The notes under the pieces were generated by a model. The model saw only the letters and a program-made list of their open reading frames with translations, was not told the DNA's origin and searched no databases. A stretch of DNA of 64,000 bases from Halogeometricum sp. S3BR5-2 (GTDB lineage: Archaea; Halobacteriota; Halobacteria; Halobacteriales; Haloferacaceae), in NCBI RefSeq assembly GCF_031624635.1, contig NZ_JAMQOQ010000003.1, positions 124,001 through 188,000 on the forward strand, read 5' to 3'. Every line of letters starts with the position of its first letter. Within the stretch, counting starts at the first letter, position 1. Positions 24,118-51,420 of the stretch are shown in pieces. The position numbers and the translations under genes were made by a program.

Positions 24118-25914
24118 TCAGTCCGACCCTTCGGCGTCTCTGTTCCCTTGGACGTCGGTGACGACGTCCTGGCGGGAGGTCTCCACGTCGAACTCGTCGC
24201 CGTCGGTCATGTCCTCGATGCGCTCGGCGAACTGCTCGGACTGGAGCAGTTCGTACTCGTGGTCCAACCCGAGATACACCGTGTAGCACATCAGCACGAG
24301 GATGACGGCGAACGGGAAGCCCGTGGCGATGGCGGCCGTCTGCAGGGCGTTGAGGCCGCCGCCCCACAGCAGCAGCGCCGCGACGCCGCCCTCGGTGACC
24401 GCCCAGAAGATGCGCTGGATCTTCGGCACGTCGTGCTTGCCGCCGGAAGTCAGGTGGTCGACGACCAGCGACCCCGAATCCGAGGAGGTGACGAAGAACG
24501 TGATGACGAGAAGCGTCGCCAGCAGTCCCGAGATGGCGCCGAGCGGGAACTGGTTGAGCATGCCGAACATGGCGAACGTCTGCCCCGACTCGTTGTAGAT
24601 GGCCATCGCGGCGCCGTTGCCCTGCAGGGAGTTGAACAGCGCGCTCCCGCCGAACGCCGAGAGCCAGATGGTCGAGAACAGCGACGGCAGCACCAGCACG
24701 CCGACGACGAACTCCCTGACCGTCCGTCCCTTCGAGATGCGCGCGATGAACATGCCGACGAACGGCGACCACGCGATCCACCACGCCCAGTAGAACACCG
24801 TCCACGCGGAGACGGTCTCGCTACCCGGGCCCATCGTTCCCGTGAAGAACGACAGCGCGGGGAGGTTGCTGAAGTAGGTGCCGAGCCCCTGCATCCACGC
24901 GCTGAAGATGAACACGCTGGGCCCGACGAGAATCATGAATCCGAGCAGGGCGAACATCACGTAGAGGTTCACCGTGCTGAGTTTCTTCACGCCCCCGTCG
25001 AGGCCGGCCGCGACGGACAGCGTCGCGATGGCGGTGATGCCGGCGATGAGGAGTATCTGTGGAACGGTACCCACCGGAACGTTGACGAGCCCCAAGATGT
25101 CGCCGAAGACGTACGAGAGGCCGCTGTTGACCTGACTGACGCCGAGACCGAGCGACGTCGAGAGACCGAACAGCGTAGCGAAGACGGTCACGAGGTCGAT
25201 GAAGTGACCGATGGGACCGTAGATACGGTCGCCGAGCAGCGGCCAGAAGATAGAGCGGAACGTGAGCGGGAGTCCGCGGTTGAACGAGAAGAACGCCAAT
25301 CCGAGGCCGACGAGGCCGTAGATGGCCCAGGGATGAAAGCCCCAGTGGAAGAACGTCTGCGCGAGGGCAGCGGCCCCCGCGCCGCCGCTACCCGACTGGG
25401 CGTCGAAGAAGCCCGGGACGTTGGAGAAGTAGTAGAGCGGTTCGGAGACGCTGTAGAACATGAGCCCGATACCCATGCCGGCGCTGAACAGCATCGCCAT
25501 CCAGGAGAAGTCGCTGAACTCCTTTTCGGCCTCGACGCCGCCGAGGCGAATCGTCCCGTACTTGCTGAACGCGAAGTACGCGAGCGTCACGATGAAGATG
25601 TTCACCGCGAGGAGGAAGAACCACCCGAAAGTGCCCTCGAAGAAGCCTCGGATGGCGCCGTACGCCCCGGCCGCCGTCATCAGCGTTCCGTCGGCGGTCG
25701 TCAACCCGACGACCGACGCGAAGTTCTGGAAGAACACCGTCAGTACGACGAACGTCGCGATGATGACCAACGCGACCGGGAACACGACGGGATGAACGTC
25801 GAACCCGAATTTTTGGATGTTCGTGTCTCCCGGTTCGCGATCCGATTCCGGGTGGAACAGTTCGACCTGAAGGCCGTCGGACATCTCGCCAGTTGAGTCG
25901 TCGCTACTCGCCAT
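24118..25914 (-). CDS. BCCT-family compatible-solute transporter
   Basis: A 598-residue secondary transporter of the betaine/carnitine/choline family with twelve predicted helices. The substrate loop in helix 3 reads SAGMGIGLMFYSVSEPLYYF, the Gly-Met-Gly-Ile-Gly form typical of glycine-betaine carriers. The family's Trp-rich helix reads WTVFYWAWWIAWSPFVGMF, and FFVTSSDSGSLV marks helix 10-11. The N-terminal about 50 residues and the last 40 are acidic cytoplasmic extensions that in BetP-like proteins sense osmotic stress. It imports betaine or a similar solute with Na+ or H+. It is divergent from a long gene-free region holding its promoter. Confidence 0.93.
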   Translation of the reverse strand: MASSDDSTGEMSDGLQVELFHPESDREPGDTNIQKFGFDVHPVVFPVALVIIATFVVLTVFFQNFASVVGLTTADGTLMTAAGAYGAIRGFFEGTFGWFFLLAVNIFIVTLAYFAFSKYGTIRLGGVEAEKEFSDFSWMAMLFSAGMGIGLMFYSVSEPLYYFSNVPGFFDAQSGSGGAGAAALAQTFFHWGFHPWAIYGLVGLGLAFFSFNRGLPLTFRSIFWPLLGDRIYGPIGHFIDLVTVFATLFGLSTSLGLGVSQVNSGLSYVFGDILGLVNVPVGTVPQILLIAGITAIATLSVAAGLDGGVKKLSTVNLYVMFALLGFMILVGPSVFIFSAWMQGLGTYFSNLPALSFFTGTMGPGSETVSAWTVFYWAWWIAWSPFVGMFIARISKGRTVREFVVGVLVLPSLFSTIWLSAFGGSALFNSLQGNGAAMAIYNESGQTFAMFGMLNQFPLGAISGLLATLLVITFFVTSSDSGSLVVDHLTSGGKHDVPKIQRIFWAVTEGGVAALLLWGGGLNALQTAAIATGFPFAVILVLMCYTVYLGLDHEYELLQSEQFAERIEDMTDGDEFDVETSRQDVVTDVQGNRDAEGSD

Positions 25915-26430
25915 GCGGTACCCTCTCCGTCCGGTATCGTCCGTGTTCGCGTACGTTCATGTTCTGGTTTCCGGCGCTGCAAAGCGGTTGTCGCCCGATG
26001 GTCGGCGTCGGTGGACCGGTCCACCCACCGTATCCGTCGTTGCTACCCTGTGAATTCATGCATCGTAACCCAGCGTTATATGAGATTGGGCCACTCCGAC
26101 CGATCGGATGGCAGTCCCAGTTCGTGCTATCCTCAGCCACGGTTGTTCGACCCACGACTCATGATACCACACTTACGGATAAAGATGCACGTTGACTTGC
26201 TGTGATATTTTTAACCCGAACGTGTACCTCCGAGGCGTTCGAGCGTTCGATTCACCGGCGAACACCGCGCCCGGAGTCGCCGCGTCCCGCCCGTCGCGAC
26301 CGACGAGGCGGCGAGCGAGTATCGGTGCGGAAGAACAGAACACCGCTCGCGGGTGCGAGAGGCGAAGACGGGTCGCGGACGCCCCGTCGGTCGGTCCCGG
26401 CACCTCGCGCCGAACGCCGAGCGGGCGCCC
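25915..26430. other. Intergenic region upstream of the BCCT gene
   Basis: There are 516 bases with no convincing gene. The section about 26040-26220 is markedly AT-rich and contains GATATTTTTAACCC near 26203, which looks like a TATA element on the plus strand but precedes no gene I can recognise. The rest is G+C-rich, and the open frames there have no coding character. Confidence 0.35.
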
Positions 26431-27096
26431 TCAGAATCCGACGTGGGTGTCGCGTTCGACGGTGGCGTACCCCTGCGCCGCGAGGGCGTCCCCGCGATAG
26501 CGCGCCGCGAGCAACTGCTGCGGCGCGCGTCGCAGTCCGAAGCGTCGGTCCGACCGGTAGTCGTAGTCGACGACGGTGTCGTCGCCCGCGTCGCGTATCG
26601 TCGCCCCGTAGGTTCCCCACGGGCGACCGCCGGCTTCGACGCGCATCTCGACGCGGCGGTCGCCGCTCGGGTCGGTCATCGTCTCCGTGTCGACGGTCAT
26701 CTCGGTCGAGCGCAGTCCGAACAGGTACGAGACGCGGTACCGCGCCGTCCCGTCCTCGACGGTGACGTCGTCCGCGATGCCCCACTGAAGCGCGAGCACC
26801 GGCGGCGTCGGACCGGCGAACGCGTCGGCGACCGACGCCGGGTCGTCGTCGGTCCGGAGTCGGGCGGTGCCGGACGTTCGGAGCAGGGGAACGCGGGCGA
26901 CGAGGAGGAGGACGGCCGCGACGGCGGCCGCCGGTAGGAGCGACGTCACGGCGTACGCGCCGAGGAATATCGAGACGGCGACGAACACGACGAGAGCGGT
27001 GACGGGGCGTTCGCGTCCGAGATACTGTTCTGCGACTTCGACGGCCTCCCGGGGCGGGTCGACGCGGTTCGCGGAGGGCATCGCCCGAGATGTCAT
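26431..27096 (-). CDS. Haloarchaeal membrane-associated protein of unknown function
   Basis: This 221-residue product has two hydrophobic segments near the N-terminus (about residues 32-48 and 51-67), followed by a soluble, beta-rich acidic domain of about 150 residues (GIADDVTVEDGTARYRVSY..., DDTVVDYDYRSDRR). It looks like a small protein with a paired transmembrane anchor and an exposed C-terminal domain. I recognise no family. A second in-frame ATG five codons in could also be the start. It lies 54 bases upstream of the flavin-dependent oxidase gene on the same strand and may be transcribed with it. Confidence 0.65.
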   Translation of the reverse strand: MTSRAMPSANRVDPPREAVEVAEQYLGRERPVTALVVFVAVSIFLGAYAVTSLLPAAAVAAVLLLVARVPLLRTSGTARLRTDDDPASVADAFAGPTPPVLALQWGIADDVTVEDGTARYRVSYLFGLRSTEMTVDTETMTDPSGDRRVEMRVEAGGRPWGTYGATIRDAGDDTVVDYDYRSDRRFGLRRAPQQLLAARYRGDALAAQGYATVERDTHVGF

Positions 27097-27150
27097 TCGA
27101 CGGACGGTTAACGCTGCCGAACCCGCCGCCGAGTCGGGGCCGAAGCGGGG

Positions 27151-28293
27151 TTACTCGAAGCGGTCCAGTCGGAACATATCGATGGGATGCTCCGTCTCGC
27201 CGTCGGCCGCCAGATCCGCGAGAATCTCGCCGATAACGCTGGCGAACTTGAAGCCGTGACCGGAGAAACCGGCGCCGACGGCTACCTGCGGGTGGTCCGG
27301 GAGGGTGTCGAGAATGAAGTGCTCGTCCGGGGAGTTCGTGAACATGCACGTCGACAGCCCCATCGTCGGCCCCGACGCCTCCGGGAAGTACTTCTCCGTG
27401 AAGTCGCGCAGCACCTCCTCGTCGGCGCGCGTCGGGTCGGTGTCGTAGTCGTCGGGGTTCACCTGCTCGTCGAGGTGGTGGTACTTGCCGAGTTTGAACC
27501 CCGGCACGTCGTGGACGGGGAAGCCGTAGAAGCGCCCCTCGGGGACGCTGATGTTCCAGACGGGGTGATTTCCGGGCTGAAAGTTCGACGGCGTCTCGGG
27601 CTGGAACCACGCCAGCGCCTGCCGTTCGGGGACGGCCAGTCCCTCCAGGGCGTCGGCCAACTTGTAGTTCCACGCGCCCGCCGCGAGGACCATCGCGTCC
27701 GCCTCGTAGGTGTCGCGGTCGGTCCAGACGCGGACGCCGCCGTCGGGCGTCTCCGCCCAGTCGCGGACGGACTCGCGGGCGCGCACCTCCGCGCCGGCGG
27801 CCTGCGCCGCCTCCGCGTGCGCGACGATGGCCTGCTCGGGGACGAGAAAGCCGCCGTCCTCCTGATAGACGGCGCGGTGGTCCTCGGGCAGTTCGTAGCC
27901 GGGAAACCGCTCGTTCACCTCCGCGCCCGTCAGTTCCTCGTAGGGGATGTCGTACTCCTCGCAGGAGCGTTTCGAGCCCTCGAACACCGGATTATCCGGT
28001 GCGCCGGCGTCGATGGAGCCCGTGCGGTGCAGGATGTCGCGTCCCGACGACTCGTCTAGCTCCTCCCACAGTTCGTAGGCGCGTTCGATGAGCGGGATGT
28101 AGGAGGGGTGCTCGTAGTAGGCCCGCCGGATGATACGCGTGACGCCGTGCGAGGATCCCTTCGCGTGCGGGATGTCGAAGCGCTCGATTCCGACGACGTC
28201 CAGTCCGCGCTCGGCGAGGTGGGCGGCGGCCGCGCTTCCCATCCCGCCGACGCCGACGACGGCGACATCGTACCGCTCGTCGCTCGTGCTCAT
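27151..28293 (-). CDS. Monomeric sarcosine oxidase/N-methyl-amino acid oxidase (MSOX/SolA type)
   Basis: A 380-residue FAD enzyme of the DAO superfamily. The N-terminal dinucleotide fold is VAVVGVGGMGSAAAAHLA, and the second FAD contact KGSSHGVTRIIRRAYYEHPSY is diagnostic for MSOX and N-methyltryptophan oxidase. Near the C-terminus STCMFTNSPDEHFILD contains the Cys that binds FAD covalently in MSOX, and GAGFSGHGFKF follows. The reaction would be oxidative removal of an N-methyl group (for example from sarcosine), giving an amino acid, formaldehyde and peroxide. I use the ATG giving MSTSDERYDV. With a betaine-type carrier 1.3 kb away, it may take part in methylated-amine breakdown, which is inference. 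Confidence 0.9.
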   Translation of the reverse strand: MSTSDERYDVAVVGVGGMGSAAAAHLAERGLDVVGIERFDIPHAKGSSHGVTRIIRRAYYEHPSYIPLIERAYELWEELDESSGRDILHRTGSIDAGAPDNPVFEGSKRSCEEYDIPYEELTGAEVNERFPGYELPEDHRAVYQEDGGFLVPEQAIVAHAEAAQAAGAEVRARESVRDWAETPDGGVRVWTDRDTYEADAMVLAAGAWNYKLADALEGLAVPERQALAWFQPETPSNFQPGNHPVWNISVPEGRFYGFPVHDVPGFKLGKYHHLDEQVNPDDYDTDPTRADEEVLRDFTEKYFPEASGPTMGLSTCMFTNSPDEHFILDTLPDHPQVAVGAGFSGHGFKFASVIGEILADLAADGETEHPIDMFRLDRFE

Positions 28294-28398
28294 TCTCTGC
28301 CGAGCGTTCACACCGAAAGACAATCAGTGTTGACGCGTATCACGGGTCCCGTTTATCCGTCCCGCGGCGGCGACCGTGTGGGGCGCGGAAGGCGGGCT

Positions 28399-29001
28399 TC
28401 ACTCGTCCCGGAGTCGCAGCGTCTCGTCCAGGTACTCGTCGGCCGCGCGCCGCGCCGTCGCCAGCGTGTCCGCGTCCTCGAAGACGACAGACCGGGTCCG
28501 CGCGCCGTCGATGATGATCATGAGCGTCTTCGAGACGTGCTCGGAGTCGACGTCCGCGAAGACGCCTTCGCTGATGCCGTGGTCGATGGCGGTCCGAAGC
28601 AGGTAACGAACGTACTCGTCGTTCTGCTCGAACCGCTCGGTGAACGCCTCCTTGTACGGCGCTTGGCTCCGCATCTCCAGCATCGCCACGGACAGGTCGC
28701 TGTTGTCCTTCGGACCGGCCAGGAGTCTGTCCAAGAGCATCTCCAAGCGCTGCTCCGGGTCCGTCGTCTCCACCTCGTGTATCGTGCTCACGAACCGGTC
28801 CAGCAGGTAGTCGAGGAACGCCGCGAGCAGGTCGTCCTTCGTCTCGTAGTGGTAGTGAATCGCGGCGGTCGACTTGCCGTACTCCTCCGCGATTCGCTTC
28901 ATCGTCAGGTCCGCGTAGCCGTGCTCCTCGAGCGCCCGATAGGTGGCGCGCATTATCTCCTCGTCCGCGTCCGAGGGAGTGCGCTCGGGTGGCTCACCCA
29001 T
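28399..29001 (-). CDS. TetR/AcrR-family regulator
   Basis: A 200-residue regulator with an N-terminal helix-turn-helix domain (about residues 12-60: IMRATYRALEEHGYADLTMKRIAE followed by GKSTAAIHYHYETKDDLLAAF) and an alpha-helical ligand domain that ends in a segment resembling LYDGARTRSVV. It is oriented toward the oxidase gene on the same strand, 105 bases away, and is divergent from a second TetR gene whose protein is clearly related. It may control itself, the oxidase, or the MATE exporter. The 176-base region between the two regulators contains a palindrome suited to TetR binding. Confidence 0.9.
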   Translation of the reverse strand: MGEPPERTPSDADEEIMRATYRALEEHGYADLTMKRIAEEYGKSTAAIHYHYETKDDLLAAFLDYLLDRFVSTIHEVETTDPEQRLEMLLDRLLAGPKDNSDLSVAMLEMRSQAPYKEAFTERFEQNDEYVRYLLRTAIDHGISEGVFADVDSEHVSKTLMIIIDGARTRSVVFEDADTLATARRAADEYLDETLRLRDE

Positions 29002-29143
29002 TGTTCGTACCTTTACCGACGACTAAATAACGGTTTTGTTCCGAGCGATGACACCATTTTGCTACTGCCCCGATAGTTCTCAGAACCCGAATTGCCGCGT
29101 TTCTGAGCCTGTATCACGAATAGTCACCAGTCAGAACTTTTTT

Positions 29144-29163
29144 GACTGACTAGTTAGTAAGTC
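29144..29163. promoter_or_regulatory. Palindrome between two TetR genes, likely operator
   Basis: GACTGACTAGTTAGTAAGTC matches its own reverse complement at 16 of 20 positions and lies 15 bases before the ATG of the second TetR gene. TetR-family dimers bind such sequences. A further GTCACCAGTCAGAAC just upstream carries another AGTCA-type half-site. Autoregulation of the tetR-MATE operon is the simplest reading. Confidence 0.55.
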
Positions 29164-29177
29164 GCGTTATCACCAGC

Positions 29178-29768
29178 ATGGACGACGCAGTACGCGAAGA
29201 GATACTGGACGGAACGTACCGGGCGCTGTGTGCGCACGGGTACGCGGACCTCACGATACAGGACATCGCCGCGGAGACGGACCGGAGCAAGTCGCTCGTC
29301 CACTACTACTTCGAGAGCAAAGGCGAGTTGATAGACGCGTTTCTCACGTACCTGTACGACCGCTACACCGACTACATCGGCGAGGAGAGAGGGGAGACGA
29401 CTCGGGAGAACCTCACGTCGCTACTCGAACGCCTCCTCGACGGCGACGACTCCGAGCGACTCCGAACGGCGCTGTTGGAGGTGAAAGCGCAGGCGCCGTA
29501 CGACGAGTCGATTCGAGAGCACCTCGTCGAGTTCGACGCCGCCCTCTTCGAGCGACTCCGGGAACTCGTCGCGGCGGGCGTCGAGTCCGGCGAGTTCGAC
29601 GCGGCCGTCGACCCCTCGCGCACCGCCGAGTGTCTGACCGCGGCGGTTCACGGCGCGCGGACGCAACGGACCGCACTCGGTCGGCGGCGATACCACGCCG
29701 ACGAGACGCTCACCGAGTACGTCGATACCTACCTCGTCGCCGACGGAGGCCGGGAGGCGGCGCACTGA
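29178..29768 (+). CDS. TetR/AcrR-family regulator of the adjacent MATE exporter
   Basis: A 196-residue TetR protein: helix-turn-helix at about residues 8-52 (YRALCAHGYADLTIQDIAA then SKSLVHYYFESKGELIDAF), and a C-terminal helical ligand domain ending with HGARTQRTAL. It is similar along its length to the neighbouring divergent TetR (shared YRAL..HGYADLT and a late GART motif), suggesting gene duplication. Its stop shares one base with the ATG of the MATE gene, so it is the first gene of that operon and probably its repressor. Confidence 0.9.
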   Translation: MDDAVREEILDGTYRALCAHGYADLTIQDIAAETDRSKSLVHYYFESKGELIDAFLTYLYDRYTDYIGEERGETTRENLTSLLERLLDGDDSERLRTALLEVKAQAPYDESIREHLVEFDAALFERLRELVAAGVESGEFDAAVDPSRTAECLTAAVHGARTQRTALGRRRYHADETLTEYVDTYLVADGGREAAH

Positions 29769-32481: not shown

Positions 32482-33252
32482 ATGAAGCCGCGCAGAACCG
32501 GGGATACGCTCCAGACGACCGACATTTCGCTTCGAGTCGTCGAACACGTCACCGAACTCGACGGCGCTACCCTCGCGGAACTGACCGCGGAGACGGGGCT
32601 GGCGAAGAGCACCGTTCACAACCACCTGAAGACGCTCTCGCGGTACGGCTATCTGAACCGCGAGGGCGACACCTACCACGTGGGCGTGAAACTCTACCAC
32701 CTCGGGAACTACGCGCGAAAGCGCCACGAGGCGTACGAAGTCGCGAGGGCCGTCGTGCCGGAACTGGCCGACGAGACGCAACTGGAGGCGGACTTCACCG
32801 TCGAGGAGAACGGCCGCATCGTTTCGCTGTACGACGTGTCGACGTTCTCGAACACCGCCTCCTCGCTCGTCGACAGCCGACTGTTCCACGTCCACAGCAC
32901 CGCCTCGGGGAAGTCCATCCTCTCGGAGTACTCCGAGGGGCGAGTCCGGGAGATACTCGACCGGTGGGGACTCCCCGCGCAGACCGAACACACCATCACC
33001 GACATCGACGAACTGCTGGAGGAACTCGAAGCCGTCCGGGAACGGGGGTACGCCACCAGTTTCGGCGAAGCCATCGAGGGGATGTGGACGATAGGTATCC
33101 CCGTCGCGGGACCGGACGGCGCCGTGTGCGGTTCGATCAACGTCTGCGCGCCGACCTACGCCCACGACGAATCGAGGGAACGCGCCGTGGTGGACGCACT
33201 GGAGGAGAAGGCCGCAGTCTTCGAGCGACGACTCGCCGAACAGGGAGAGTGA
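32482..33252 (+). CDS. IclR-family transcriptional regulator
   Basis: A 256-residue IclR regulator. The winged helix-turn-helix occupies residues 10-75 (LRVVEHVTELDGATLAELTAETG then LAKSTVHNHLKTLSRYGYL). The C-terminal effector domain (about 90-250) contains SLVDSRLFHVHSTASGKSIL, GYATSFGEAIEGMW and the late GSINVCAPTYAH, all typical IclR ligand-domain landmarks. IclR proteins usually control catabolic operons in response to a small carboxylate. BlcR, the repressor of bacterial gamma-butyrolactone operons, is of this family, and a lactonase-dehydrogenase operon lies 3 kb downstream. That link is inference. Confidence 0.93.
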   Translation: MKPRRTGDTLQTTDISLRVVEHVTELDGATLAELTAETGLAKSTVHNHLKTLSRYGYLNREGDTYHVGVKLYHLGNYARKRHEAYEVARAVVPELADETQLEADFTVEENGRIVSLYDVSTFSNTASSLVDSRLFHVHSTASGKSILSEYSEGRVREILDRWGLPAQTEHTITDIDELLEELEAVRERGYATSFGEAIEGMWTIGIPVAGPDGAVCGSINVCAPTYAHDESRERAVVDALEEKAAVFERRLAEQGE

Positions 33253-36034: not shown

Positions 36035-37354
36035 CTACGTCTCCTCCCAGTTGTTGAGCGCGTCCAAGAAGACGTCGCGCACGTCGTCCTCGGTGACGGG
36101 CCGGGGGTTCGTCCGCAGGAGTCGCTTCTGCGTCTCGACGGTCTGTTCGGCGAGCCAATCGACGTCCTCCTCGGTGATGCCGGCGAGTTCTTCGAGGCCG
36201 CTCGGGAGGACGTTCAGATCGCGTTGGAGTTGGATGTACTGCGCCTTCAGCGCGTCCGTCGCCTCCCGGTCGGTCATCCCGTCGGTGTCGACGCCGAACA
36301 TCTCCGCGACGTCCGCGAACCGGGAAGGGTCGCTCGCGGAGTTGTAGTCGATGGTGCTGGCGGGCGTGAGAACGGCGATGGTCTCGCCGTGCGTCGTGTG
36401 GTACTTGTTGCCGACGGGGTACGCCATCGCGTGGCAGAGAGTTGCCCCCGCGGTCAGTCCCGCGATGGCGCCGAACAGCGCCCCCTGCAGCATGTTCTCG
36501 CGGGCCTCCAGGTCGTCGCCGTTGTGGACGGCGGTGCGGACGTTGCTCGACAGCAGGTCGATGGCCTTCTCCGAGAACATCTCCGTCAGCGGCGTCCGCC
36601 CGGCGTACACCGGTCGGTCGGCCGGGTCGGTCGGCCGCAGCAGCGAGTCGTACTCGTGGGTCGTGTAGCCCTCGATGGCGTGACCGAGGGCGTCCATCGC
36701 CGTCTTCGCCGTCAGGTCCGGCGGGAGCGTCGTCGTGAGCGTCGGGTCGAGGACGGCGGCGTCCGCGCGGACGTGGTTCGAGGAGATACCCTCCTTTATC
36801 TCCTTCTCGGGGACCGAGAGGATGGCGACGGGCGAAATCTCCGCGCCCGTGCCGGCCGTCGTCGGCATCAGAATCAGCGGCGCCCCGGACTCCGTCAGCG
36901 GTTCGCCCTCGCCGGTCGGTTCGGCGACGTAGTCCAGCGGTTCGCCGCCGTTGGCGATGACCGCTCGCGTCACCTTCGCGGTGTCCATGCAACTGCCGCC
37001 GCCGAGACCGACGTAGAAGTCGTATCCGGACTCGCCGGCCTCCTCGCGGACGAACTCGATGCAGTCCGTGACGGCCTCGACGGACGGTTCGCGCTCGGAA
37101 CCGTCGTAGACATCGACGGAGAGACCGTCGTCCTCGATTTCGCCGGCGACGCGGTCCGCGTGACCGATATCGACGAGGTTCTCGTCGGTGACGACGAGTC
37201 CGCGGGCGTCCTCGTCGACGCCCAAGTCGCGGAGTTGAAACGCGAGTTCCTCGGTCGAATCGCGCCCGAAGCGTATCTCCGGCATGTCGATGTGCCACAC
37301 CGTCTCCGGGTCGAGGCTGTGGTTCGGCGCCGAGACGGAGCGCTCGTAGCTCAT
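36035..37354 (-). CDS. Iron-dependent (group III) alcohol dehydrogenase, possible gamma-hydroxybutyrate dehydrogenase
   Basis: A 439-residue enzyme of the iron-containing ADH family. The NAD-binding part has FYVGLGGGSCMDTAKV; PTTAGTGAEISPVAI is the family's second signature. Metal ligands lie in TAMDALGHAIEGYTTHEY and in CHAMAYPVGNKYHTTHGE, which supply the Asp and three His of the iron or zinc site. Its start shares one base with the stop of the lactonase gene (TGATG), so they are tightly coupled. In agrobacterial blcABC operons the same pair, lactonase BlcC and Fe-ADH BlcB, turns gamma-butyrolactone into succinic semialdehyde. The substrate here is inferred from that parallel. Confidence 0.9.
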   Translation of the reverse strand: MSYERSVSAPNHSLDPETVWHIDMPEIRFGRDSTEELAFQLRDLGVDEDARGLVVTDENLVDIGHADRVAGEIEDDGLSVDVYDGSEREPSVEAVTDCIEFVREEAGESGYDFYVGLGGGSCMDTAKVTRAVIANGGEPLDYVAEPTGEGEPLTESGAPLILMPTTAGTGAEISPVAILSVPEKEIKEGISSNHVRADAAVLDPTLTTTLPPDLTAKTAMDALGHAIEGYTTHEYDSLLRPTDPADRPVYAGRTPLTEMFSEKAIDLLSSNVRTAVHNGDDLEARENMLQGALFGAIAGLTAGATLCHAMAYPVGNKYHTTHGETIAVLTPASTIDYNSASDPSRFADVAEMFGVDTDGMTDREATDALKAQYIQLQRDLNVLPSGLEELAGITEEDVDWLAEQTVETQKRLLRTNPRPVTEDDVRDVFLDALNNWEET

Positions 37355-38157
37355 CAGGACCACCCCGACTCGATTTCCGCGAACTGCTCGGGGTCGTGGC
37401 CGTAGACGACCTCGGCGTCGTGACGCCGTTCGAGGTCCTTTAAGACCTGGAGGCTGTCGAACCAGTGGCGACCGCTCCAGAGCAGTTGCGCCCCCAGCGG
37501 AATCTCCTCCTCGTAGTTGTCGCTCTGGTATATCTCGTCGCCCGCGAACACGACGGTACCGTGGTCGTCGAGGTGGATCATCGTCCCCGTGAGTCCGGGC
37601 GTGTGTCCGGGGAGGCGGACGAACTCCGTGTCCTCGAAGTGCGTCTCGCGGTCCTGATGAAGCACCTGCCAGTTCAGGTCGTGGTCGAAGTCCCCGAGGA
37701 TGTACGCGCCGCTTCCCTCCGTCGTCTTCGCGGAGTAGTAGGCGAACTTCAACTCCTCCTCGTGGACGTAGACGGGCACGTCCGTGCCGTCGAAGTGGTG
37801 GAGGCCGCCCGCGTGGTCGAGGTGGAGATGGGTCTGGAACACGGCGTCGATGTCGTCCAGCGAGTAGCCCGCGTCGTCGAGGTCGCCCTCCAGAGTGTGC
37901 TCGCCCACGTCGTGCGGGTAGAACGCCTGCTTCAAGCCCTCCGGCCAGTGGCCGTCGAGGGCGTCCTCGTGGTTGCCGGTGTCCCAGAGGATGGTCGCCT
38001 CGGGGTGGTCGATGACGAGGTTCCACACCGGAATCTCGACGTAGTCCGTCGGCGGGTTCGGTTCGTCGTGGCTCCCGAGCGTGTTACCCTCCACGAGGTA
38101 GTTGAGGTCGCACTCGAGTCCCCCGCGGTCGATGACGTCTATCGTCGCGTCTACCAT
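37354..38157 (-). CDS. Metallo-beta-lactamase-fold lactonase (AttM/BlcC/AiiA type)
   Basis: A 267-residue hydrolase. The dinuclear zinc motif HxHxDH is THLHLDHAGG (His110, His112, Asp114, His115), with further ligands in LPGHTPGLTG and FAGDEIY and a late VVYGHDPEQF. The size and the segments DTGNHEDALDG and QTHLHLDHAGG fit the N-acyl-homoserine-lactonase branch that also includes gamma-butyrolactonase BlcC. It opens the lactone ring in the cytoplasm, having no signal peptide. It is the first gene of a two-gene operon with an Fe-ADH. The ATG giving MVDATIDVID is chosen because the 54 upstream codons cover AT-rich promoter DNA. Confidence 0.9.
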   Translation of the reverse strand: MVDATIDVIDRGGLECDLNYLVEGNTLGSHDEPNPPTDYVEIPVWNLVIDHPEATILWDTGNHEDALDGHWPEGLKQAFYPHDVGEHTLEGDLDDAGYSLDDIDAVFQTHLHLDHAGGLHHFDGTDVPVYVHEEELKFAYYSAKTTEGSGAYILGDFDHDLNWQVLHQDRETHFEDTEFVRLPGHTPGLTGTMIHLDDHGTVVFAGDEIYQSDNYEEEIPLGAQLLWSGRHWFDSLQVLKDLERRHDAEVVYGHDPEQFAEIESGWS

Positions 38158-38648
38158 ACGAACTAATGCGATTAACAATGTCAAAAGACTGGCGGGGGAA
38201 CGGGCAACGCTCGTTCCCTCAGCACCGATAGTTCGGAAGACGGTAAGGAGGGTCCGAGTCGGCGCCTCGTGCCGCGGACGATTGCGGCCGGTATAGATAC
38301 ATATGTAATCAAATGGCACGATATGAATTCGTATTTCGGCGAGAAAACCTTCGTTAGAGAATTCAGATGCATTACCGCGCGTCTAATTGCGAAATCTGAA
38401 ATGTGAACGTCTGACTACGCGATTGTGTATTCGGATTTTGACATCGAGGTGTGAGCTTCCGGTTCCGCACAGACCGCAGCCAGCGTCGGAGCCGGCGCGT
38501 CGACGAACGCCCGTGCGCGGGCGATTCGGGCGGCTCGAACGACCGACGGCGACGGAAACGGCCGCTCGGACCGCTCGAACCGTCTGATTTCAATAAAATA
38601 TACCCGAAAATAATTAGTTTTAATGGACGGCATACACACTCTCCGTGT
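38158..38648. promoter_or_regulatory. Divergent control region of lactonase operon and aminotransferase
   Basis: This 491-base region has no gene. At 38196-38218 GGGAACG...CGTTCCC forms a hairpin. The AT-rich section 38295-38430 includes TTCAGA at 38362 and TCTGAA at 38395, an inverted pair 27 bases apart that echoes the CTGAAA/TTTCAG elements elsewhere in the window. Near the aminotransferase, AATTAGTTTTAATGG (about 38611-38625) gives a TATA element about 30 bases before the ATG. Shared control of both sides is plausible. Confidence 0.45.
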
Positions 38649-40019
38649 ATGGACAGGCACACCGCGGAACCGACAGCCGAGGGTCTACCGGGTCCGAACG
38701 CCGCGGAGTGGATCGAGTTTCACTCGGAACACGCCGCGCCGAGCGAGTACTCCCACGAATTCGTCTGGGACGTGACCGCGGAGGCGGACGGGCCGTTCGT
38801 CACCGACGTGGACGGGAACGTCCTCCTCGATTTCACCTGCCACATCGGCGCGGCCCCCCTCGGATACAACAACGAGAAGGTGCTCGGGAAACTCCGCGAG
38901 TTCGACCTCGTAGAGCCGATGAAGATAGCGGGGCAGGACATGTACTACGGCGCCGGGCCGGACCCCGAGGAGTCGCCGTTCCCGGGGGCAAGTCACCTGA
39001 TGGAGAAGCTCTGTGAAGTCTCCGACCAGTACGGGATGGACACCGTCTTCCTCTCGAACTCCGGCGCCGAAGCGGTGGAGAACGCGCTGAAGATAACGTA
39101 CGACGACGCGCCGGCGGCGAAGTACGGCTTCGCCTTCGAGGGAAGCTTCCACGGCCGGACGATGGCGACGCTGTCGGTCACGCGGTCCAACGAGGTGTAC
39201 ACCCGACACTACCCCGAGATTTCGGGGGTCAAGACCGTCCCGTTCTGCACCGACCGGCGCTGCACCGAAGGCGAGTGCGACTGCGGGTTCTCGCCCCGCG
39301 AGGGGTCGCAGTTGCGGCGGGCGCTGTCCCCGGAAGGCGGCCACGTCAACCCCGAGGAGGTGGCGTTCGTCGTGATGGAACCGATTCAGGGCGTCGGCGG
39401 CTACCGCTTCCCGAGCGAGGCGTTCATGCGCGAGGTCGGAGCCGTCACCGACGAGTACGACATCCCGCTGGTCGTCGACGAGATACAGTCGGGCGTCGGG
39501 CGGACCGGCGAGATGTGGGCGGCGGACCACTACCCCATCGAACCCGACGTCATCGCCAGCGCGAAGGGTCTCCGGGTCGGCGCGACCATCTCGAACTCCG
39601 ACCTCTTCCCGAGCGAGTCGAACCGCCTGGGGTCGACGTTCGGCGGCGGCGACATCCTCTCGTCGATGCAGGGCGTGTTCACGCTCGAAGCCATCGAGGA
39701 GCACGACCTCTTGGACAACGCCACCGAACGCGGCCGACAGGCGAAGGAACTGCTCCGCGACGACGCGTCGGAGTACGTCGAGGACGTGCGCGGGAAGGGA
39801 CTCATGCTCGCCGTCGAGTTCGACACCGCCGAGCGCCGCAGTGCGGTCGTCGAGGAGTCGCTGAAGCGCGGCCTCCTCACGCTCGGGTGCGGAAAGAAGA
39901 CGATTCGGCTCCTCCCGCCGCTGGATTCGACCGAGCGCGAAATCGAACTGGGAATCGGTATCTTCACCGACGCCGTCGACGCCGCGGGCAACGAAGTCGC
40001 CTCCGCCCCGTCGTCGTAA
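38649..40019 (+). CDS. Class III (GABA-type) aminotransferase with Cys cluster
   Basis: A 456-residue PLP enzyme of the acetylornithine/4-aminobutyrate aminotransferase class. Landmarks are FLSNSGAEAVENALK (phosphate loop), FEGSFHGRTMATLS, VVMEPIQGVGGY, PLVVDEIQSGVGRTG (the Asp that pairs with the pyridine nitrogen) and IASAKGLRVGA (the PLP-binding Lys). Between them, Cys200, Cys205, Cys210 and Cys212 form a compact CX4CX4CXC cluster that could bind a metal. It is divergent from the lactonase-dehydrogenase operon. If it acts on GABA it would give succinic semialdehyde, the same product as that operon. Other omega-amino acids are possible. Confidence 0.9.
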   Translation: MDRHTAEPTAEGLPGPNAAEWIEFHSEHAAPSEYSHEFVWDVTAEADGPFVTDVDGNVLLDFTCHIGAAPLGYNNEKVLGKLREFDLVEPMKIAGQDMYYGAGPDPEESPFPGASHLMEKLCEVSDQYGMDTVFLSNSGAEAVENALKITYDDAPAAKYGFAFEGSFHGRTMATLSVTRSNEVYTRHYPEISGVKTVPFCTDRRCTEGECDCGFSPREGSQLRRALSPEGGHVNPEEVAFVVMEPIQGVGGYRFPSEAFMREVGAVTDEYDIPLVVDEIQSGVGRTGEMWAADHYPIEPDVIASAKGLRVGATISNSDLFPSESNRLGSTFGGGDILSSMQGVFTLEAIEEHDLLDNATERGRQAKELLRDDASEYVEDVRGKGLMLAVEFDTAERRSAVVEESLKRGLLTLGCGKKTIRLLPPLDSTEREIELGIGIFTDAVDAAGNEVASAPSS

Positions 40020-50031: not shown

Positions 50032-51420
50032 TTAGTCGTCGAGGCCGTCGGCCGGCGACACCCACACCGTCTTCTTGTTCGTGAACTCCCGGATGCCGTC
50101 GGCGGCGAGTTCGCGGCCGTAGCCGGAGTTCTTCACGCCGCCGAACGGGAGTTTCGGGTGCGACTGCACGAGTTCGTTGACGAACGCCGCGCCCGCCTCG
50201 AACTCGCCGGCGAGTCGCTCGCCCCGTTCTAAGTCTCCGGTCCAGACGCTCGCCCCGAGTCCGTAGTCGGTGTCGTTCGCCAGTTCCATCGCCTCCTCCT
50301 CGCTCCCGACGCGGAACAGGGAGGCGACGGGACCGAACAGTTCGTCGCAGGCGGCGGGGCTCTCCTCCGGAATCTCCTCCAATACCGTCGGCTCGAAGAA
50401 GTAGCCCTCGCGGTCCAGCGCCTCTCCGCCGGTGAGCACCGTCGCGCCGGCGTCCACCGTCTCTTTGACTTGCGTCTCCAGGGTGTCGAGGAGGTCCGCG
50501 CGGGCGATGGGTCCCACGTCGGTGTTCTCCTCGCGGGGGTCGCCCACCGTCAGCGACTCCATCTCGCGGACGAGTCCGTCGCGGAACTCCTCGTAGACGT
50601 CCTCGTGGACGATGAACCGCTTGGCGGCGATGCAGGCCTGCCCGTTGTTGTTCACGCGGGCCTGCGCGGCCACCTCGCACGCCCGGTCGAGGTGCGCGTC
50701 GTCGAGGACGACGAACGGGTCGCTCCCGCCGAGTTCGAGCACGGAGGGTTTGAGGTTGTTCCCGGCCGTCTCGGCGACGGCGCGGCCCGCGCGGACGCTG
50801 CCGGTCAGCGTCGCCGCGGCGACCCGGTCGTCGGCCACGGCGTCGTGTATCGCGTCGGTGTCGACGACGAGCGTCTGGAAGACGCCCTCGGGGAAGCCGG
50901 CGTCGGCGAGAATCCGCTCGACGGCCGTCGCACAGCCGGTGACGTTGGGCGCGTGGCTGAGAAGCATGGTGTTACCGGCCGCCAGCGTCGGCGCCGCGAC
51001 CCGCAGCACCTGCCAGAACGGGTAGTTCCACGGCATCACGGCGACGAGGGGGCCGAGGGGTTCGTAGGACACCTTCGTCCGCGCCTCGGGGTGGACGCCG
51101 ACGCGTTCGTCCTGCAGGAACTCCGCGGCGCGTTCGGCGTAGAACTCGCAGACCCACGCGCACTTTTGAATCTCCCCGCGGGCCTGCGAGACGGGCTTGC
51201 CCATCTCCTCGGTCATCAGTTCGGCGTACTCGTCCTCGTTCTCGCGGAGGACGTCGGCTATCGACCCGACGAGCGCCTGTCGCTCGGTGATGAGCCGGTC
51301 GCGCCACGACGCGAAGCGGTCGGCCGACGCGTCGAGCATGCGGTCGAGGTCGGCGTCGTCGTGGTATTCGTACGTCTCGATATCGTCCTCCGTCGTCGGG
51401 TCGGTGGTCGTGAGTTGCAT
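50032..51420 (-). CDS. Semialdehyde dehydrogenase (aldehyde dehydrogenase family)
   Basis: A 462-residue NAD(P)-dependent aldehyde dehydrogenase. The N-terminal cofactor domain has PLGPLVAVMPWNYPFWQVLR; the general-base Glu lies in LELGGSDPFVVLDD and the catalytic Cys in NNNGQACIAAKRF; the C-terminus has LPFGGVKNSGYGRE. The short form and sequence resemble the succinate/aspartate semialdehyde group (GabD/YneI/DoeC-like). It could oxidise succinic semialdehyde from the lactone/GABA genes or aspartate semialdehyde from diaminobutyrate. It is one base away from the RidA gene upstream, so they form an operon on the minus strand. Confidence 0.93.
   Translation of the reverse strand: MQLTTTDPTTEDDIETYEYHDDADLDRMLDASADRFASWRDRLITERQALVGSIADVLRENEDEYAELMTEEMGKPVSQARGEIQKCAWVCEFYAERAAEFLQDERVGVHPEARTKVSYEPLGPLVAVMPWNYPFWQVLRVAAPTLAAGNTMLLSHAPNVTGCATAVERILADAGFPEGVFQTLVVDTDAIHDAVADDRVAAATLTGSVRAGRAVAETAGNNLKPSVLELGGSDPFVVLDDAHLDRACEVAAQARVNNNGQACIAAKRFIVHEDVYEEFRDGLVREMESLTVGDPREENTDVGPIARADLLDTLETQVKETVDAGATVLTGGEALDREGYFFEPTVLEEIPEESPAACDELFGPVASLFRVGSEEEAMELANDTDYGLGASVWTGDLERGERLAGEFEAGAAFVNELVQSHPKLPFGGVKNSGYGRELAADGIREFTNKKTVWVSPADGLDD

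Follow-up and report, generated by a model that had tools for sequence, protein, structure and literature searches.

Within a 64,000-nucleotide stretch of the genome of the haloarchaeon Halogeometricum sp. S3BR5-2 (contig NZ_JAMQOQ010000003.1, positions 124,001 to 188,000; hereafter the window), a lactonase gene and an alcohol dehydrogenase gene lie together on the minus strand. The first gene of the pair (37354-38157) encodes a metallo-β-lactamase-fold lactonase of 267 amino acids (Lactamase_B, AhlS/GcL-like). Its TGA stop codon has one base, 37354 on the minus strand, in common with the ATG of the second gene (TGATG). The latter (36035-37354; 439 codons including the stop) encodes an iron-containing (type III) alcohol dehydrogenase (ADH) with Fe-ADH and ADH_Fe_C domains. 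On the promoter side of the pair, an intergenic stretch of 491 bases (38158-38648) leads to a divergent class III aminotransferase gene (Aminotran_3) on the plus strand, whose ATG lies at 38649 and whose stop codon ends at 40019. The coordinates, the one-base overlap and the 491-base gap had been given in a preliminary description of the locus and were all confirmed from the open reading frames and their translations. Halogeometricum pallidum has the identical gene set in the same order, with a lactonase of 97% identity.

Co-conservation of the pair, which the preliminary description had proposed as a check, was assessed in 391 haloarchaeal genomes, each at least 90% complete. When homologues with at least 71% identity to the lactonase and at least 67% identity to the dehydrogenase were counted, 67 genomes had the lactonase, 79 the dehydrogenase and 66 both (Fisher p = 2.6e-60, a value that overstates independence as the sampled genomes share ancestry). 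The two genes adjoin in all 66 genomes with both, i.e. in 66 of the 67 lactonase carriers, and their spacing ranged from -1 to +14 bases in 42 loci. A scan of the genome contigs yielded 80 loci with lactonase homologues. Next to the close homologues, the dehydrogenase was the sole family that was kept besides lineage-specific housekeeping neighbours. As the neighbourhoods are otherwise unrelated, selection keeps exactly these two genes together, and lactonase and dehydrogenase are a real functional two-gene unit. The flanks of the pair vary by lineage, several copies are plasmid-borne in Haladaptatus, Halobacterium and Natronococcus, and in the lactonase tree Natrialba clusters with Halolamina and not with other Natrialbaceae. 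These findings point to a mobile catabolic cassette, whose two genes are presumably co-transcribed. No operator motif upstream of the lactonase was common to the homologous loci beyond lineage-specific sequence. At one locus (L167:8968-9168), a 66-codon, internally deleted stretch resembling the lactonase stands ahead of an intact dehydrogenase gene; it looks like the lactonase was lost from the cassette there.

The lactonase has an intact HxHxDH motif, and the ligands of its metal site (H110, H112, D114, H115, H185, D207 and H254) were invariant in 30 aligned homologues. All elements of the dinuclear site of the AhlS family (HxHxDH~H~D~H) are present. The enzyme had been described as AttM/BlcC-type, which proved too specific: it scored 103 bits against the AttM model NF045700 with its cut-off of 390, compared to 486 bits for AttM of Agrobacterium fabrum C58. 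The best curated model was AhlS (NF047976) with 153 bits, and the predicted structure (predicted local distance difference test, pLDDT, of 87.5) was nearest to GcL (TM-score 0.84), followed by AiiB, AiiA and AhlX. Judged by its sequence, the lactonase is nearer to AhlS/GcL than to AttM/BlcC, with an identical metal site. It differs from the AhlS/GcL lactonases by an identity of 26-28% in the fold alignment, by a score that falls far short of the 475-bit AhlS cut-off and by having a dehydrogenase as genetic partner.

RefSeq names the lactonase an N-acyl homoserine lactonase family protein. This name, the AhlS model as the best curated match and the fact that the best solved relatives, GcL and AiiB, are acyl-homoserine lactone (AHL) lactonases would agree with a quorum-quenching enzyme that is co-transcribed by chance with an unrelated detoxifying dehydrogenase. 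We consider this quite improbable, since all AHL lactonase models, AhlS and AttM among them, stay far below their cut-offs and an opened AHL offers the dehydrogenase nothing obvious to act on, although the two genes stay together in 66 of 67 genomes. Proteins of this name next to the dehydrogenase are instead probably catabolic.

A lactonase paralogue with 59% identity (G000 C1:390313-391110, L144) belongs to a separate clade B with 37 sampled members and 100/100 support. Clade B lactonases are never found directly beside the dehydrogenase; they often have genes for acyl-CoA synthetase and acyl-CoA dehydrogenase nearby and may perhaps perform a lactone-opening step before β-oxidation.

In the dehydrogenase, the metal ligands D221, H225, H308 and H322 are invariant and the NAD-binding residues are intact. 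Plasmid-borne relatives with 68-81% identity are called hydroxyacid-oxoacid transhydrogenase (HOT) by RefSeq. The activity for which the HOT subfamily (ADHFE1, cd08190) has been characterised is the conversion of 4-hydroxybutyrate to succinic semialdehyde, and the activity of its non-animal members was stated to be unknown (PMC5125639). Two inserts, the first of 19 residues between helices 5 and 6 and the second of 13 residues between helices 8 and 9, are said to mark all HOT proteins (PMC5125639). Compared to BlcB and a plain Fe-ADH, the window dehydrogenase has 17-18 extra residues (36593-36652 on the minus strand, about residues 235-254), the motif of which is kept in 20 homologues. They agree with the first published insert in position and size. 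The enzyme thus resembles HOT in its RefSeq name, its first insert and its metal and NAD residues. It differs in the second insert, which was absent in comparison with BlcB and likewise from two other prokaryotic HOT-named proteins. The transhydrogenase mechanism is therefore uncertain and the dehydrogenase was not filed as a HOT member; that it uses transhydrogenase rather than simple NAD chemistry appears possible, if somewhat doubtful. The predicted structure of the dehydrogenase was too poor (pLDDT 51.9) and was left unused. Assignments as choline dehydrogenase GbsB, lactaldehyde reductase or sulfoacetaldehyde reductase were rejected, as the best model reached less than half of the cut-offs.

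Related dehydrogenases were also seen in other surroundings. A plasmid of Haloferax alexandrinus (L129:152-2973) carries a HOT-named dehydrogenase of 44% identity that shares the first insert, with a gene for an IclR-family regulator after it. On a Peribacillus plasmid (L128:8504-15521), a HOT-named dehydrogenase stands in a row with a second Fe-ADH, two aldehyde dehydrogenases, one of them named succinic semialdehyde dehydrogenase (SSADH), and an MFS transporter; this row is possibly a bacterial 4-hydroxybutyrate cluster without a lactonase. In two haloarchaea (L087:6872-13483 and L159:8582-13028), the dehydrogenase lies near genes resembling a set of HMG-CoA synthase-like and thiolase genes; L087 additionally has a clade B lactonase and a gene resembling acyl-CoA synthetases. 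These surroundings may be another context for the hydroxy-acid product of the dehydrogenase.

A third gene was found in three genomes from two families, namely, Halobacterium hubeiense (L124), Halolamina salifodinae (L037) and a genome placed in the genus of the latter (L161). There, an SSADH gene follows directly after the dehydrogenase, in the same direction and about 20 bases on. The three proteins are 87-88% identical to one another. Their best model is the NADP-dependent SSADH GabD1 with 604 bits (cut-off 730), and RefSeq names them NAD-dependent succinate-semialdehyde dehydrogenase. The enzyme types are those of the blcABC (attKLM) operon of A. fabrum C58, in which the lactonase and the iron ADH are likewise adjacent and co-directional, and the three SSADH-bearing loci restore its full gene content. 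With BlcB and BlcC of C58 as queries, the window pair gave the top matches of the entire host genome, by a wide margin. The identities were low, with 29% between lactonase and BlcC, 31% between dehydrogenase and BlcB (29-34% as best-match range for the pair) and 37% between the SSADH of H. hubeiense and BlcA. In contrast to blcABC, the haloarchaeal gene order is reversed with the lactonase first, there are usually two genes only, the lactonase falls outside the AttM model, the ADH carries the insert that BlcB lacks and the pair has no BlcR partner. The earlier identification of the two genes as a blcC-blcB pair therefore holds for the touching arrangement, the SSADH in three genomes and the best matches, but not for close homology: the pair is probably a functional analogue built from distant relatives.

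On this basis, the following route is proposed. The zinc lactonase would open a small lactone, most likely γ-butyrolactone, to the ω-hydroxy acid 4-hydroxybutyrate, which the iron dehydrogenase would oxidise to succinic semialdehyde with NAD. If it acts like animal HOT, the hydride would instead pass to 2-oxoglutarate via a bound cofactor. An SSADH, encoded beside the pair in some relatives and at another site of the present genome (best candidate C3:274999-276348), would then supply the citrate cycle with succinate. A third step that oxidises an aldehyde requires a primary alcohol before it and hence an ω-hydroxy acid. Catabolism of ω-hydroxy-acid lactones in general is likely. The adjacent SSADH genes together with the named subfamily of the dehydrogenase narrow this to γ-butyrolactone and 4-hydroxybutyrate, and we favour, with reasonable though limited confidence, an archaeal, independently assembled γ-butyrolactone/4-hydroxybutyrate module. 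A more specific version appears doubtful, namely an AhlS/GcL-type lactonase joined independently of bacteria to a prokaryotic HOT, in which hydride transfer to 2-oxoglutarate gives D-2-hydroxyglutarate.

Iron ADHs and lactonases of this kind have broad substrate ranges, which speaks for another lactone with a primary-alcohol hydroxy acid, e.g. δ-valerolactone or the lactone of a longer ω-hydroxy acid, from which the matching oxo acid would be made. The clade B paralogues with their acyl-CoA synthetase and dehydrogenase genes further indicate that the lactonase family serves other substrates too, and 5-hydroxyvalerate is oxidised by the iron ADH CpnD (HVD subfamily) in cyclopentanol degraders (PMC5125639). 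The third gene in the three genomes is nearest to SSADH models, however, and the subfamily after which the dehydrogenase is named acts on 4-hydroxybutyrate, which makes such a substrate unlikely.

Several observations weigh against γ-butyrolactone degradation by the pair. Of the 79 dehydrogenase carriers, 13 are without a close lactonase, and an SSADH adjoins the pair in only three genomes and is not found beside it in the window. The best curated model of the dehydrogenase is GbsB, well below its cut-off, and the second HOT insert is missing. In favour of such degradation, Haloferax mediterranei incorporates fed γ-butyrolactone as 4-hydroxybutyrate units (PMC3880725), and a haloarchaeon can thus take up and open this lactone. 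The Haloferax loci found carry only the clade B lactonase, and the incorporation is therefore not direct evidence for the cassette.

Neither a haloarchaeal γ-butyrolactone lactonase nor such a blc analogue was found in the literature searched, which spans few subscription journals. The γ-butyrolactone/4-hydroxybutyrate reading provides a substrate prediction for two enzymes that are named by similarity alone in dozens of haloarchaeal genomes. If it is true, one three-step route was built twice from distant parts, and the cassette would drain 4-hydroxybutyrate in haloarchaeal bioplastic work that feeds γ-butyrolactone (PMC3880725). The most interesting point is whether or not the HOT-named prokaryotic enzyme is a real 4-hydroxybutyrate:2-oxoglutarate transhydrogenase; if so, HOT would have an assigned role outside animals for the first time.

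The preliminary description had moreover assumed an integrated γ-aminobutyrate (GABA)/γ-butyrolactone locus, in which the aminotransferase, the pair, an aldehyde dehydrogenase at 50 kb and an IclR regulator are co-regulated and feed succinic semialdehyde. All these genes are less than 20 kb apart here, and in two sister Halogeometricum genomes the aminotransferase and the IclR gene likewise lie beside the pair. The aminotransferase adjoins the pair in three Halogeometricum genomes only, however, and is about 70 kb away in a fourth (G040). In all 10 of the other contexts sampled, it stands beside or shortly before genes for a PALP-fold lyase, an M20 hydrolase and a 2-hydroxyacid dehydrogenase, mostly also near GDH, an ectoine-hydrolase-like DoeA, a second aminotransferase (AT2) and RidA. 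The same set follows it in the window, at 40-52 kb. As the aminotransferase belongs to this other conserved cluster, the control region that it was thought to share with the pair is a local accident, and synteny rules it out as a pathway partner. Two further members of the assumed locus, the IclR and aldehyde dehydrogenase genes, fared little better, as set out below, and co-regulation of all these genes is highly improbable.

The IclR-family gene (32482-33252, plus strand) had been placed 3.5 kb upstream as a BlcR-like regulator. It is present, 2.8 kb from the dehydrogenase and separated from it by an aldo-keto reductase and a UspA-like gene. It ranked only fifth of 13 BlcR matches in the host genome, and it was not conserved near the pair. 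The divergent BlcR-type repressor of the blc system is thus not matched by the window gene, which was ruled out as a BlcR counterpart. The semialdehyde dehydrogenase noted about 10 kb on is likewise present (50032-51420, minus strand; GabD1/PRK09406-like) and sits between AT2 and RidA. It is the second-best match to the operonic SSADH with 61% identity, while the best (69%), at C3:274999-276348, is about 100 kb further. It is thus a possible, not the best, candidate for the third step.

A 2026 report (PMC13188858) describes clusters of this kind in Halobacteria and provisionally, pending tests, assigns them a putative role in ectoine catabolism. The window segment 40076-52579, together with the neighbouring aminotransferase gene at 38649-40019, resembles them in its DoeA-like hydrolase, aminotransferases and aminopeptidase-like genes; it is not part of the lactonase-dehydrogenase cassette. 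This putative ectoine-catabolism cluster, much of which is kept in at least 10 further genomes, comprises genes for an S15 peptidase, a threonine ammonia-lyase-like PALP protein, an M20 hydrolase, a 2-hydroxyacid dehydrogenase, GdhB, the DoeA-like hydrolase (475 bits with a cut-off of 613), a DABA-type aminotransferase, the GabD1-like aldehyde dehydrogenase and RidA. A D-2-hydroxyacid dehydrogenase was also considered as recycler of a 2-hydroxyacid product and rejected. The matches upstream of the pair in Halorubrum resemble a phosphoglycerate dehydrogenase of 534-588 amino acids amid housekeeping genes, and the copy in the window is part of the cluster with the aminotransferase. At the other side of the pair, a BCCT-family transporter, a DAO-family FAD oxidoreductase and two BetI-like TetR regulators are clustered at 24118-29768, which looks like uptake and use of compatible solutes.

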